A stretch of DNA of 64,000 nt, taken from contig JALFLB010000060.1 in assembly GCA_022775045.1 (NCBI GenBank), positions 81,455 through 145,454 of the forward strand. The letters are read 5' to 3'. The DNA is from Agathobacter sp. GTDB taxonomy: Bacteria; Bacillota; Clostridia; Lachnospirales; Lachnospiraceae. Below the pieces are notes generated by a model. That model was not told the DNA's origin. It made no database searches and worked only from the letters and a program-made list of their open reading frames with translations. The first letter of the stretch is position 1. The number at the start of each line of letters is the position of its first letter. The position numbers and the translations under genes were made by a program. Positions 17,337-22,310 of this stretch are shown in pieces.

Positions 17337-17364
17337 AAAAGCAGGTTCATTCGAACCTGCTTTT
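17337..17364. terminator. Bidirectional terminator after pyrG
   Basis: AAAAGCAGGTTC-ATTC-GAACCTGCTTTT is a perfect 12-bp inverted repeat with a 4-nt loop and A/T flanks. It ends pyrG on the plus strand and can also stop the convergent ABC operon on the minus strand. Confidence 0.85.
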
Positions 17365-17414
17365 GTAGATCCTATTCAACTTCAAAATTCAATTCGCAGT
17401 ACACATATCCTCGC

Positions 17415-18050
17415 CTACTCTTCTTCAACCCTTATTTTTCTATTGCTAATCTTATAAATCCGGTCACACATCACCTCAATATCTTCCCTATTATGACTGG
17501 TAAGAATCATAAGAGCCTGATTTTTCTTCACATATTCTTTGAAAAACTGACGCATCTCTCCAATTGAATCTTCATCCAATCCATTCATCGGTTCATCCAA
17601 CAGAAGAATTTTCGGTTTCTCCATAAATGCCTGCGCAATTGCAAGTTTTTGTTTCATCCCTAAGGAAAATTTTTTATATACCTTCTTTGAATTTGGATCA
17701 AGCCCGACAATACGAAGTATTTGCTCAATTTCGTTCATTCCAATTTTTTTCTGAATCATCGCTAACGAATAGAGATTTTCTGTTGCTGTATACTGCGGCA
17801 AAAAACCGATACAGTCGCTAACCAGTCCAATATTCTGTGCATATTCCCCTTTTTTTAACACAACACCATCAATCAGAACATCTCCCTCCGATGGTCGGGA
17901 AAGTCCTGCAATTATTTTCAATAATTGAGATTTTCCACTTCCATTCTTACCAAGAATACCGTATATTTTTCCATCCTGAAACTGCAGATTCACATCTTCT
18001 AAAACTGACTGTCCTCGAAATTCTTTATATATTTTTCTACATTCTATCAT
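17415..18050 (-). CDS. ABC transporter ATP-binding protein
   Basis: A 211-residue ATPase of the type that pairs with ABC-2 permeases to export drugs, peptides or lipids. Walker A GILGKNGSGKS lies near 32-42, the signature FSLGMKQKLAIAQA near 128-141, and Walker B ILLLDEPMNGLD near 149-160. At just over 200 residues it contains a single nucleotide-binding domain without extra regulatory parts. It follows the permease genes with two bases between, so it is the last gene of a three-gene exporter operon. The substrate is unknown. The operon faces a BlaI/M56 regulatory pair across a shared promoter region. Confidence 0.9.
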   Translation of the reverse strand: MIECRKIYKEFRGQSVLEDVNLQFQDGKIYGILGKNGSGKSQLLKIIAGLSRPSEGDVLIDGVVLKKGEYAQNIGLVSDCIGFLPQYTATENLYSLAMIQKKIGMNEIEQILRIVGLDPNSKKVYKKFSLGMKQKLAIAQAFMEKPKILLLDEPMNGLDEDSIGEMRQFFKEYVKKNQALMILTSHNREDIEVMCDRIYKISNRKIRVEEE

Positions 18051-18052
18051 CC

Positions 18053-19493
18053 TTACACCTCACCCTTCTTCTCAATGATCTTTTCATATCGGGAAATGAA
18101 TGTTCTACTTATTCCCGTCAATAACAAAAGCAAATATACTAGTTGAGAAATACATGTAGCAATCTGACAGTTGCTATGTGAGCAATACACGCCTCCACTA
18201 AGCGGAATCCATGCAGTAAGCTTTGTCTGCGTCTCTGTAACTAGCACAAGAATCAAATGAGCACTAATAGTTATAACCATGCTAATATGTTTCTGTTCTT
18301 CTAACCAAAGACCAATCTCAAAAGCAACCATGATTATTAACATACTCTGCAAAAACAAATTAAAAATCATCAAAATCACGGAACCAACATTCGTATACAT
18401 ATCATTCGTTTCTCCAATTATATTTCTACTCCACAATGCCAATGTTCCGATACCGATTGCATAGTAAAGAGCTATGTCTGCAATCATTCCTGCCACCACT
18501 CTTATCAGACAATATATCACACTTTTCCCACGAAGAAGGTACTGTACAAAAAATATATTCATTCGATATTCTAAAAATATATATGCAAGAATCCAAATCG
18601 GCAGCTGATACAGAAGATATAAAAGCATAAAGAGATCCATTCTTTGAAATCCATAAAAGTACTGCATCAAATCTGCTGCAATATTTTCACTCGAAATTGT
18701 TATATATGATTTTCCTGCAAATGCAAATATTGTAAATGTGCTAAATGAGACCAATGCCACAATAATCCAATTCATATACTTCGTATGCACTTTCACAAAA
18801 AGCTGATTCCACGGAACATACATACGCAGCAAGCAGCATCCCAGAATCACAACAATCCATATCATCCAATAATGAAAATGTATTGAATACGCTTCTTCCG
18901 AAGTAATTAATACATTTCCTACCCAAGTCAGCTTTGTAAATGATTTCTCTGCATAATAAATAGCATTACTTACAGCATAATTGCAGAACAAAAGTCCCAT
19001 TGCAAGAAAAGCTGCTATTTTTTCTTTTATACCAAATGTTAGAAAAAAAAAACAAAATGTTTCCCAAAACAAATTGAAAAAGAAATATATTAATTTCCAG
19101 AAAAGCAATGAGTCTGAGTTCTCCAAAACTCAGCTTCAACACTCCCCTTCCTTCTCCCACAAGTGCCACGCCGAACATAACTACCAAAAGAATTAAAATG
19201 ACGCGCAAAGACAGTTTTGCCAATCCCTTTTCTGCTTCCACAATCAAATTTTTGCAATTTCCATATCTAAGTACCCGATAAGGGTTTTCTACCAAACGTA
19301 TCAGGAAACAATAGGCCGTAATATTTACTGCCATCCCCTGAATGAGTAAAACGATAAAACGATCATTCAACGTCTCAATCACCCATTCAAAAAGGTCAAA
19401 TTCTGCATTCATCATGTGATAATTATAATAATAAAACTCGATCACAAGGAGAAACAGAACAAATAGTAAAAAATCATCCCTATTCTTTCTCAT
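18053..19493 (-). pseudogene. ABC exporter permease split by a frameshift at a T10 tract
   Basis: Two overlapping ORFs (19493-18966 and 19126-18053) are best read as one permease. The first frame gives MRKNRDDFLLFVLFL through QFVLGNILFFF, then loses its membrane character. The second frame continues with LTFGIKEKIAAFLAMGLLF and several more membrane helices. The switch falls exactly on ten consecutive T (19043-19052). Removing one T joins the frames into about 479 residues with many hydrophobic segments. Its ATG overlaps the upstream permease stop by 14 nt. This could be a genuine inactivating indel, phase variation, polymerase slippage making some full-length protein, or a sequencing error. 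Confidence 0.7.
19043..19052 (-). repeat. T10 homopolymer at the permease frameshift
   Basis: Ten T in the coding strand between ATTTTG and CTAACA. Nine T would restore one open reading frame across the permease. Such tracts are prone to slippage during replication and transcription. Confidence 0.85.
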
Positions 19494-20241
19494 TGCACTT
19501 TACCCCAAATACAAAAAGTAAAACACCTACCATCAAAAGTGCCACTCCCATCACCACCAACTGCCATGTCTGCACCAAACCGTACTCCGACGGACAAAAT
19601 AAAAGCAGGAAATTAAACCAGCCAACCGGCGACAGAATTGCAACCAATATACACATTGCAAACGGAAGAACAATTGTCAAAAACTCATTTTTTATCCATG
19701 TAGAAATTCCAAGTGCCAATACGGAAAAAACAGCCCCACACAAAAAAACAATCCCTACACTCATTGCCATATAACCTTTGGGGGATGCAAGTGCAAAGTC
19801 CCTCAAATAACTTACAAAAGAATTTCCATTCTCATCCAATAAAGGTGCTGTATTTTCCCTCGTCAGACTCAACTGAATCGCATAAACTCCTACTGGTATG
19901 GCAAGCGCAAACCCACCATAAAAAAAAGAAGCGACTAGCTTTCCTACAATATAGTGTGCCTGTCCTTTACGAATTCTCTCACACCTTAGATACCCCGATT
20001 TATATTCTCGAACATAGGTTGTCGCATATGGCAGAGCCGCGACCATTGGAAACACAATTCCGAGAAATCCATACAACCCTGAAGCCATTGTAAAGAGGAA
20101 CAGTGTCAAAACATTTCCTGCACCTTCATATCCAAATGACATCATACCATAGTAAGAATATTCCAACAAAGAAAGAGCAATCAGAAGGGCAGTCAGAAAG
20201 TACCGATTTTGTTTTAATTTATATATTATTTTTCCCCGCAT
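19480..20241 (-). CDS. ABC-2-like membrane permease
   Basis: A 253-residue integral membrane protein with about six hydrophobic helices (YFLTALLIALSLLEYSYYG, GLYGFLGIVFPMVAALPYA, YIVGKLVASFFYGGFALAIPV, and three more). The segment ATTYVREYKSGYLRCERIRKG between helices resembles the cytoplasmic coupling region of ABC-2 permeases, where the domain contacts its ATPase. AAGGAG lies 7 nt before the ATG. It is the first gene of the exporter operon, followed by the split permease and the ATPase. I cannot name the substrate. Lipid, peptide or antibiotic export are all compatible. Confidence 0.75.
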   Translation of the reverse strand: MRGKIIYKLKQNRYFLTALLIALSLLEYSYYGMMSFGYEGAGNVLTLFLFTMASGLYGFLGIVFPMVAALPYATTYVREYKSGYLRCERIRKGQAHYIVGKLVASFFYGGFALAIPVGVYAIQLSLTRENTAPLLDENGNSFVSYLRDFALASPKGYMAMSVGIVFLCGAVFSVLALGISTWIKNEFLTIVLPFAMCILVAILSPVGWFNFLLLFCPSEYGLVQTWQLVVMGVALLMVGVLLFVFGVKCNEKE

Positions 20242-20261
20242 GAGTAATCTCCTTATACATA

Positions 20262-20280
20262 TACTGTATTTTTTTTACAG
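20262..20280. promoter_or_regulatory. Inverted repeat in the exporter operon leader
   Basis: ACTGTA-N7-TACAGT is a perfect dyad between the exporter promoter and its first gene. BlaI/MecI/CopY operators are built from TGTA/TACA elements, so it is a candidate repressor site, although the spacing is longer than usual. Confidence 0.35.
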
Positions 20281-20285
20281 TTTCA

Positions 20286-20345
20286 AGTATACATTCTTTA
20301 TTTTACAAAATCAATATTGATTTTTATATTTTTAAATGTTATTGT
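20286..20345. promoter_or_regulatory. Back-to-back promoters sharing an 18-bp palindrome
   Basis: The perfect palindrome AAAATCAATATTGATTTT (20307-20324) contains both -35 boxes. Leftward, TTGATT (20309-20314) is 17 nt from TATACT (20286-20291) and drives the ABC operon. Rightward, TTGATT (20317-20322) is 17 nt from TATTGT (20340-20345) and drives the blaI-like operon. A dimeric repressor here would block both promoters at once. The adjacent BlaI-family protein is the obvious candidate, by inference. Confidence 0.6.
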
Positions 20346-20385
20346 ATTAAAAATACTTTTTCAGCAAACAAAGAAAGGTGTCACA

Positions 20386-20811
20386 ATGAAAATTAAACGA
20401 CCTTATGCAAAACTTACGAACCGCGATCTGGATATCCTCAATATCCTATGGGATTCTCCTAAGTCGCTGACCGCGCAGGAAATTACAAATTCGCAGGAAG
20501 GGCTTACCATCAACACGGTACAGGCAGAGCTGCGAAAGCTCTTAAAGCTGGAACTGATTGCCGTTGCGGACATTGTATACAGTGGAACGGTACTGTGCCG
20601 GAGCTATCGTCCGGCTATGACCGCACAGGAATTTACCATCTCCCAGTTTACAAGCGAGATCAAGGAATTCGCAGGCGACATCTCGGCCTCTGCCTTCGTT
20701 GCCGCGTTATTAGACACGGAGCCTGACAAAGAAAACCGTGCCAGAGAGATTGAAGAGTTAGAACATCTTCTCGAAGACTATAAAAAAAATCTGTCGGACG
20801 AAACCAAATAG
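20386..20811 (+). CDS. BlaI/MecI/CopY-family winged-helix repressor
   Basis: A 141-residue protein beginning MKIKRPYAKLTNRDLDIL. The start at 20386 has AAAGGTG 7 nt upstream; the track ORF adds 23 unsupported codons. Residues about 8-80 form the winged-helix domain of this family (LDILNILWDSPKSLTAQEI, NTVQAELRKLLKLELI), and the charged C-terminal part is the dimerisation segment. These repressors hold operons shut until cleaved by a membrane protease of the BlaR1/MecR1 type, and such a protease gene follows directly. No beta-lactamase is nearby, so the controlled genes are probably its own operon and the divergent exporter. Confidence 0.85.
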   Translation: MKIKRPYAKLTNRDLDILNILWDSPKSLTAQEITNSQEGLTINTVQAELRKLLKLELIAVADIVYSGTVLCRSYRPAMTAQEFTISQFTSEIKEFAGDISASAFVAALLDTEPDKENRAREIEELEHLLEDYKKNLSDETK

Positions 20812-20865
20812 GCACGCAGAAACGGTCTGTTTCATGACCAATGATACGAAAGAAGGCTGATCACA

Positions 20866-22011
20866 TTGACTTTTACCAACTCCTCTTTTTTGATGTCCCT
20901 TTTGTTCAGCAACGTACTCTTCATTCTGCTGTACATTCTTTTTCGGAACACCAGATTTATGATTGACATTGGCTATCGGCTTCTTGCCCTCTTCCTTGTC
21001 ATCACGCTACTGCGATTTCTCCTTCCTTTCGAGATTGCCTGCAGCACCAATATTCTGCTTCCGGAAACTATATCGAGAATCATCATATTCTTAAAGACGC
21101 CGAATATTGTGCTTGGGAAGTGTACCCTGTCGGTCTGGCATCTGTTTCTTATTGTATGGCTGGTAGGGAGTGGTATCGCGTTCCTCCGGCTGCTTCTGTC
21201 CTACCATCGTTTCCACCAGATTGTCCGACGGCTGGGCACAGACATCTCAAGGGAAGATCCTTACCGGTCACTGCTGCAGCAGATCTGTCAGGAACACCAT
21301 AAAAGGTGCCGATTTCACATTGTGCAGTTGCCTGGGATTTCGTCCCCGATGGTCACCGGAATCCATAAACCCTACATTCTGTTTCCTGATAATCTGAATG
21401 CGGACAGGCAGGATCTGTACTATATTTTAAGCCACGAGGTCTCGCATATCTTCCATCATGATATGGTGACCAAGCTTTTGGCGCAACTTCTCTGCGTCAT
21501 CTACTGGTGGAACCCTTTTGCGGGACTGCTCAAAAAGCAGATTTCTACCATGCTTGAGTTACGGATTGATTTACAGCTTACGGCTTCACCTGATCCCCAG
21601 ACCCGGGTCAACTATCTGGAATGTCTGCTGCGGGCTGCAAAGTCAGAACAGCAGGCAGCAGAGCCGGCGATTTCTTTCTGCAATGCCAGTGAGTCGCTGC
21701 TTAAGCAGCGGTTCTCCGTGCTTATCAGTCACCGGGAAAAGAAAAGCCGCTGGAAACAGATTTCCTTTTCGCTTCTCTTCGTGGGACTGTATGCATTTTC
21801 CACTTTCTTCATTTTTGAGCCGCATTATATGTCTCCGGAAGAAGCAGAAGGGACATTTGTTCCAACCCCGGAAAATGCTTATCTTGTGGAAAAGAAAGAC
21901 GGCACCTATGATCTCTACTATGAAGATAGCTATATGTCAAATTTTTACACTATTGATGAAGGTTTCGTAGAGTTACCAGTTTATCAAAACCCAAAGAAGG
22001 ATTCAAAATGA
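20866..22011 (+). CDS. M56 family (BlaR1/MecR1-like) membrane metalloprotease, short form
   Basis: A 381-residue protein apparently starting at TTG 20866, with AGAAGG about 9 nt upstream. Four membrane helices are visible (SLLFSNVLFILLYILF, LLALFLVITLLRFLLPF, LSVWHLFLIVWLVGSGIAF, and SFSLLFVGLYAFSTFFIF near residue 310). The zinc motif HEVSH in ILSHEVSHIFHHD lies between helices 3 and 4, as in BlaR1. BlaR1 carries a roughly 250-residue penicillin-binding sensor after helix 4. Here only about 60 outside residues follow, so the signal must be something else. It would cleave the neighbouring BlaI-like repressor. Its stop overlaps the start of the small secreted protein gene (ATGA). Confidence 0.82.
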   Translation: MTFTNSSFLMSLLFSNVLFILLYILFRNTRFMIDIGYRLLALFLVITLLRFLLPFEIACSTNILLPETISRIIIFLKTPNIVLGKCTLSVWHLFLIVWLVGSGIAFLRLLLSYHRFHQIVRRLGTDISREDPYRSLLQQICQEHHKRCRFHIVQLPGISSPMVTGIHKPYILFPDNLNADRQDLYYILSHEVSHIFHHDMVTKLLAQLLCVIYWWNPFAGLLKKQISTMLELRIDLQLTASPDPQTRVNYLECLLRAAKSEQQAAEPAISFCNASESLLKQRFSVLISHREKKSRWKQISFSLLFVGLYAFSTFFIFEPHYMSPEEAEGTFVPTPENAYLVEKKDGTYDLYYEDSYMSNFYTIDEGFVELPVYQNPKKDSK

Positions 22012-22262
22012 GAAACTATTTTAAAACATTATTTCCTTTTTTCTGTGCTATTGCACTGTTATTTCTACCATTGAACAATAAAATCTCAGCGGCAGATATT
22101 TCATATATTTCCACGGCACAAAGCTCTGCATCTGATTCCTCGATCACACCCCAATCGGATGACATCGGCTGGCGCTATAAAACCGTAAACGGCAAGCTTT
22201 ATAAGCGTCTTTATAACTACTCCACCAACCAGTGGATCGGCGACTGGATCTTAGTACCTTAA
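22008..22262 (+). CDS. Small secreted protein, DUF6147-like
   Basis: An 84-residue protein with a signal peptide (MRNYFKTLFPFFCAIALLFLPLNNKISAAD, probable cut after ISA). A serine-rich linker and a compact C-terminus, DDIGWRYKTVNGKLYKR...WIGDWILVP, follow. The aromatic, repeated-strand ending resembles small secreted Clostridial proteins annotated as DUF6147; I recall the family but cannot verify it. Its ATG overlaps the protease stop by four bases, so output is coupled to the M56 protein. Possible roles are the ligand or modulator of the truncated sensor, or a cargo or target of the divergent exporter. Neither is demonstrated. Confidence 0.65.
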   Translation: MRNYFKTLFPFFCAIALLFLPLNNKISAADISYISTAQSSASDSSITPQSDDIGWRYKTVNGKLYKRLYNYSTNQWIGDWILVP

Positions 22263-22292
22263 AAAAACGGTGCCGCACAACACGCGGCACCG
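22261..22292 (-). terminator. Terminator of the maltodextrin operon
   Basis: CGGTGCCGC-ACAACAC-GCGGCACCG is a perfect 9-bp stem. On the minus strand it is followed by TTTTTTT, making a strong intrinsic terminator for the GH13 gene. It also lies right after the small secreted protein stop on the other strand, without a T run in that direction. Confidence 0.85.
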
Positions 22293-22310
22293 CCTGTTCC
22301 ATCCGAAACC

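Follow-up and report, generated by a model that had tools for sequence, protein, structure and literature searches.

The 64,000-nucleotide stretch of DNA analysed here, called the window below, carries a three-gene operon (the trio) in which a BlaI/MecI-family repressor and a short membrane metalloprotease of the M56 (BlaR1-type) family are followed by a small secreted protein, termed the partner. Judged from sequence searches, the trio occurs in about a tenth of the gut and rumen Lachnospiraceae genera sampled. We lean towards reading it as a proteolytic transmembrane switch with a detached BlaR1-type sensor, in which a signal would lead to inactivation of the BlaI-like repressor and thereby free its operator. 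A preliminary description of this DNA had raised the possibility of a new BlaI/M56 sensing system in which the secreted protein, or an envelope stress, could replace the missing sensor. A distinct BlaI/M56 subsystem with the secreted protein in the place of that sensor is supported by the near-exclusive coupling of partner and protease, by a single clade of trio proteases and by one natural fusion of the two proteins. Full-text searches of open-licence papers found no description of the trio, and a PADLOC search gave no match.

RESULTS

Components of the trio

The features of the locus are collected in Table 1. The BlaI-like repressor named in the preliminary description was confirmed by its Penicillinase_R winged-helix domain, which scores 27.7 bits against PF03965 (cut-off 22.6). 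Alignment to the Staphylococcus aureus cleavage position placed Leu rather than Phe at P1', and the window repressor therefore lacks an Asn-Phe cleavage site with Phe at P1'. The same Leu is found in 32 of the 37 trio BlaI sequences, while 27 other BlaI sequences of related genomes have Phe (11), Leu (11) or Tyr (5) at this position. As Phe at the BlaI P1' position is almost invariant according to the BlaR1 paper (PMC9834060), the prevalence of Leu counts against the model that we propose.

Table 1. Features of the trio, the intergenic region and the adjoining exporter operon, in window coordinates
Feature	Position	Strand	Remarks
ABC ATPase of exporter, 211 aa	17415-18050	-	PF00005 112 bits
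Exporter permease 2, split	18053-19493	-	two ORFs, 18966-19493 and 18053-19126
Exporter permease 1, 253 aa	19480-20241	-	98% DNA identity to L033
482-bp deletion junction	20254	.	124-aa secreted-cargo gene of L033:4951-5325 lost from the window
Second inverted repeat ACTGTA-N7-ACAGT	20263-20281	.	near predicted exporter start; identical in L033
Predicted exporter-operon promoter TTGATT-17-TATACT	20286-20314	-	-35 at 20314-20309, -10 at 20291-20286
Palindrome AAAATCAATATTGATTTT, 18 bp, perfect	20307-20324	.	candidate BlaI operator; covers both -35 boxes
Predicted trio promoter TTGATT-17-TATTGT	20317-20345	+	-35 at 20317-20322, -10 at 20340-20345; -35 inside palindrome
BlaI/MecI-family repressor gene, 141 aa, ATG start	20386-20811	+	PF03965; listed ORF opens at 20317
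Short M56 (BlaR1-type) membrane metalloprotease, 381 aa, TTG start	20866-22011	+	PF05569 101.8 bits
84-aa secreted partner	22008-22262	+	signal peptide and C-terminal mini-domain (residues ~50-84); ATGA overlap with M56

The M56 profile matches BlaR1 8exp with an E value of 3e-24. The HExxH motif is conserved together with E, D, Y and R positions, residues H190, E191, H194, E231, D235, Y250 and R282 being invariant in the first alignment, and the functional positions described for BlaR1 (PMC9834060) have conserved counterparts in the trio proteases. A Pfam search detected no penicillin-binding sensor domain in the window M56, whose chain stops ~50 residues past the last membrane helix, and the NCBIfam model blaR1_generic reached only 74.7 bits (cut-off 400) and aligned only to residues 92-306. 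The earlier claim that the protease lacks a penicillin-sensing C-terminal domain is thus upheld, but a tail of ~50 residues, which had gone unmentioned, remains in its place; this extracytoplasmic tail is conserved in sequence and was modelled as a three-stranded element by structure prediction.

The partner gene, for an 84-residue secreted protein, overlaps that of the protease by the ATGA at 22008-22011, as had been described. A simple rule assigned signal peptides to 35 of the 39 partner proteins, and AlphaFold2 predicted the last 35 residues of the partner to fold as a three-stranded sheet (pLDDT 94-97). Neither the window partner nor any of its 37 relatives has a Pfam family, so that these proteins are currently unannotated. 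A Foldseek search with the mini-domain returned zero hits below 0.001, and searches of plasmids and viral contigs gave no match to the partner. Kinship to WW or other known small beta-domain families was considered and rejected, as the best sequence match was a WW prototype at E=1 and there was no significant fold match.

Conservation of the trio and phylogeny of its protease

Conservation of the gene set in other Lachnospiraceae had been named as a check on the proposal, and the trio proved to be real and widespread. By itself, and at E<=0.01, a profile built from six partner proteins matched 37 of the 299 family genomes searched, in which most genera are represented by a single genome; ~31 of these matches were judged real by score and context. 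At every locus with enough contig the partner adjoins a short M56, and the gene order is nearly always BlaI-M56-partner. The order differs in L090 and L139, no adjacent BlaI was detected by profile in L087 and L092, the BlaI gene of L095 lies 3.6 kb upstream, and L083, L099 and L100 are interrupted by contig ends. A class-wide survey, in which 14 candidates were scored per genome, located the partner only in the family of the window and in one other family of the same order.

Since most trio loci had been found through the partner, a search of 60 relatives from the M56 side provides a less biased test. The six best full-length matches outside the window's genome were all accompanied by a partner, while the remaining M56 proteins examined had none and were mostly 450-820 aa long with larger C-terminal parts. 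In a maximum-likelihood tree, the 37 trio M56 sequences formed one clade (100/100), apart from 28 comparison sequences taken from related genomes and lacking a partner.

At one locus, L101, protease and partner are naturally fused, with the partner domain following the tail at the M56 C-terminus. The model of this fusion resembles BlaR1 8exs by fold (E 3e-7); no docking of the partner on M56 is visible in it, the partner section having a pLDDT <50. The genome that harbours this fusion, G260, has three trio loci (L082, L095 and L101), each with its own partner or fusion, and the differences among them suggest separate specificities.

A candidate operator over predicted opposing promoters

The preliminary description had placed the -35 boxes of two opposing promoters within an 18-bp perfect palindrome, and this palindrome was found exactly as described. 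It is the sole gapless perfect palindrome with 9-bp arms in the window, and dinucleotide shuffling of the 144-bp intergenic region produced one of that kind in 0.4% of cases. A consensus scan recovered the minus-strand promoter (9/12) and, on the plus strand, preferred 20302-20330 to 20317-20345, which makes the evidence for the trio promoter weaker. The closest relative of the block, locus L033 from uncultured Lachnospiraceae RUG231 (M56 94% identical), has TTGACT-17-TATTGT as the counterpart of the trio promoter.

Conservation of the exact palindrome in relatives was not obtained. It is absent from the distant trio loci, and its sole match is the core AGTCAATATTGACT of L033, in changed form; the core RTCAATATTGAY is common to the window and L033, and spaced versions occur at L037, L038 and L089. 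The change in L033 is mirrored (A-to-G and T-to-C), but we gave little weight to a compensatory origin because both -35 boxes are also improved by it and it could have arisen by chance.

The heptamer GTCAATA, a half-site of the palindrome chosen as a motif after the sequences had been inspected, is present in 15 of the 34 regions upstream of trio blaI genes and in 1 of 28 control regions, likewise upstream of genes and matched for AT content (Fisher p=2e-4). The operator claim is confounded by the overlap of this heptamer with the TTGAC -35 element; among the TTGAC occurrences, 19 of 49 in trio regions and 4 of 41 in controls have TA directly in front. With the palindrome present and its half-site enriched, yet overlapping a -35 element, we regard the site as a candidate operator only.

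The adjoining exporter operon

The divergent operon had been described as a three-gene ABC exporter. Its ATPase and two permeases were indeed identified, but a fourth gene has been deleted, and the permease in the middle is broken into two ORFs by an apparent +1 frameshift. The frameshift goes back to one extra base in a T tract at ~19043, which may be genuine or an assembly error. In L033 the same permease is a single 479-aa ORF, and the operon is led by the fourth gene, which encodes a 124-aa secreted cargo protein (L033:4951-5325, minus strand) and has no copy elsewhere in the window's genome. The best NCBIfam model for the ATPase is the lantibiotic-protection ABC ATPase TIGR03740, with 169.1 bits below the cut-off of 309.75, and a permease related to permease 1 adjoins the trio in L089. 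With one permease frameshifted and the cargo gene lost, the exporter is not supported as a working response in this organism: by its sequence, the sensing trio of the window looks intact and the export operon next to it damaged. Because the output operon appears damaged, the window is a poor place for testing the exporter as the response, and loci of the L089 or L091 type are better suited. The cargo ORF of L033 itself opens at TTG, with an upstream ATG and a Shine-Dalgarno-like sequence in another frame, and it may be frameshifted or imperfect too.

Exporter and trio together (window 17350-22270) are 94-99% identical to L033. The identity is ~0.86 in pyrG, 0.98 in the exporter and 0.94 in the repressor and M56, with one sharp edge after pyrG and a sharp fall past the partner gene. 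Exporter and trio are thus more alike than the chromosomal neighbour pyrG, a pattern consistent with recent exchange, either of the whole block or of its two halves, and given the step from 0.98 to 0.94 near 20240, the two halves may have separate exchange histories. The G+C content is 35-40% in the exporter operon (17415-20241), 51% in pyrG and 46-47% in the repressor and M56 genes. The interval that separates the partner gene from a convergent amylase-type gene holds, on the minus strand, a strong hairpin and then a run of T (22255-22305), which looks like the terminator of the amylase-type gene.

Export and antimicrobial-type genes at other trio loci

Near trios, the density of ABC ATPase genes is approximately threefold that of control regions from the same genomes. 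An ABC gene lies within 4 kb, in an orientation allowing shared control, at 11 of 36 trio loci versus 10% in control regions (p=7e-4). The earlier suggestion that an export operon is an output of the switch gains some support from this excess, weaker than that for the distinct BlaI/M56 subsystem, but the output varies, as ~70% of trio loci are without a suitably oriented ABC operon in the 4 kb considered.

The linked genes themselves are of several types. A gene for a secreted protein of 125-155 aa, followed by permeases and an ATPase, is found at L033, L082, L089, L091, L095 and L102, and exporters with a C39 peptidase stand beside the trio at L104 and L076. L084 encodes a CcpM-type radical-SAM bacteriocin maturase (541 bits, above the cut-off of 500) and L141 two radical-SAM proteins. 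Several of the trio-linked ABC operons are of the bacteriocin/RiPP type.

DISCUSSION

Proposed mechanism and alternatives

We infer that the partner serves the BlaR1-type protease as a detached subunit on the extracytoplasmic side, either a sensor or a ligand. Once secreted, the 84-aa protein would act outside the membrane through its C-terminal mini-domain on the short M56, where it would probably contact the extracytoplasmic tail and loops, and the signal would be either the level of the partner itself or an envelope or antimicrobial cue that the partner senses. On arrival of the signal, the protease would inactivate the BlaI-like repressor, and the freeing of the palindromic operator would derepress the trio, together with the neighbouring export operon where one is present. 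Computation shows the conservation of the trio, the single M56 clade, the fusion, the intact catalytic positions, the candidate operator with its half-site enrichment and the ABC excess. The proposed steps are physical contact between the two proteins, with a polarity of either activation or restraint, cleavage of BlaI, binding of the operator and the nature of the signal. Taken further, and quite tentatively, the trios could make up a peptide-gated proteolytic family of the Lachnospirales, in which the secreted mini-domain would serve as a dedicated M56 ligand and control antimicrobial production and export via repressor cleavage. If this ligand reading is true, it would represent a cell-to-cell or self-sensing form of control not described for M56 proteases.

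Other roles of the partner were weighed against that of a sensor or ligand. It could instead be a restraint subunit that keeps the protease off, by analogy with the EL1 loop in the BlaR1 sensor site, and that is displaced or degraded under envelope stress. The obligate pairing of partner and M56 and the L101 fusion suit such a subunit, and the control of BlaR1 via displacement of an extracellular loop (PMC9834060) sets a precedent; polarity is not readable from sequence, and we consider this role possible, if on balance unlikely. We are more doubtful that the partner is an autoinducing peptide, a pheromone that would accumulate and activate M56 so that dense populations switch on the trio and antimicrobial export. 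Its secretion, its encoding within the regulatory operon and the presence of C39 peptidase exporters and a CcpM-type maturase among the linked operons speak for this role, but its conserved part is a wholly folded sheet and not a short peptide, and the domain tethered to M56 in L101 cannot diffuse.

It is improbable that the partner is an effector under the switch, an antimicrobial or immunity factor, with the M56 tail alone as the sensor: the tail is conserved with its own predicted three-stranded element and many trio neighbours are secretion or antimicrobial genes, but neighbouring effectors vary by locus while the partner accompanies M56 almost everywhere and is once fused to it. That the trio is simply a BlaR1/BlaI system for the response to beta-lactams whose sensor has degraded is hardly credible even though both proteins are family members, as the sensor domain is missing clade-wide, the tail is conserved, the partner gene is present and, in agreement with the earlier remark that no beta-lactamase is nearby, a class-A beta-lactamase family search had no match on the window's contig and weak matches only on other contigs.

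Comparison with known systems

In BlaR1 and MecR1, the protease senses the antibiotic through a domain of the same chain. The trio resembles BlaR1/BlaI and MecR1/MecI of S. aureus in joining a BlaI-family repressor and an M56 membrane protease in one operon, in the conservation of HExxH and further catalytic and structural positions of the protease, and in a palindromic operator (here a candidate) over opposing promoters. It differs from them in that, in place of a penicillin-binding sensor, the trio M56 has a short tail and a secreted partner encoded by a gene of its own, in that the aligned P1' residue is Leu instead of Phe in most of the repressors, and in that the linked operons consist of exporters and antimicrobial-type genes. 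With the sensing part apparently residing in a separate secreted protein, the trio suggests an undescribed kind of outside-to-inside signalling switch. If its parts cooperate, it would be a simple model in which to study how M56 proteases receive extracytoplasmic signals, as well as a way into the control of export operons of the antimicrobial type in bacteria of the gut and rumen.

Other M56/BlaI pairs of the same and related genomes (L008-L032 and L041-L043) likewise form BlaI-M56 operons, but most of their proteases are 450-820 aa long with larger C-terminal parts, and they have no partner and fall outside the trio clade. The trio also resembles bacteriocin/RiPP export loci with dedicated sensors in placing a regulator beside secreted proteins, C39 ABC exporters or radical-SAM maturases. 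Unlike those loci, it is proposed to work through a protease and a repressor instead of a histidine kinase, and its association with exporters is seen at only part of the trio loci.
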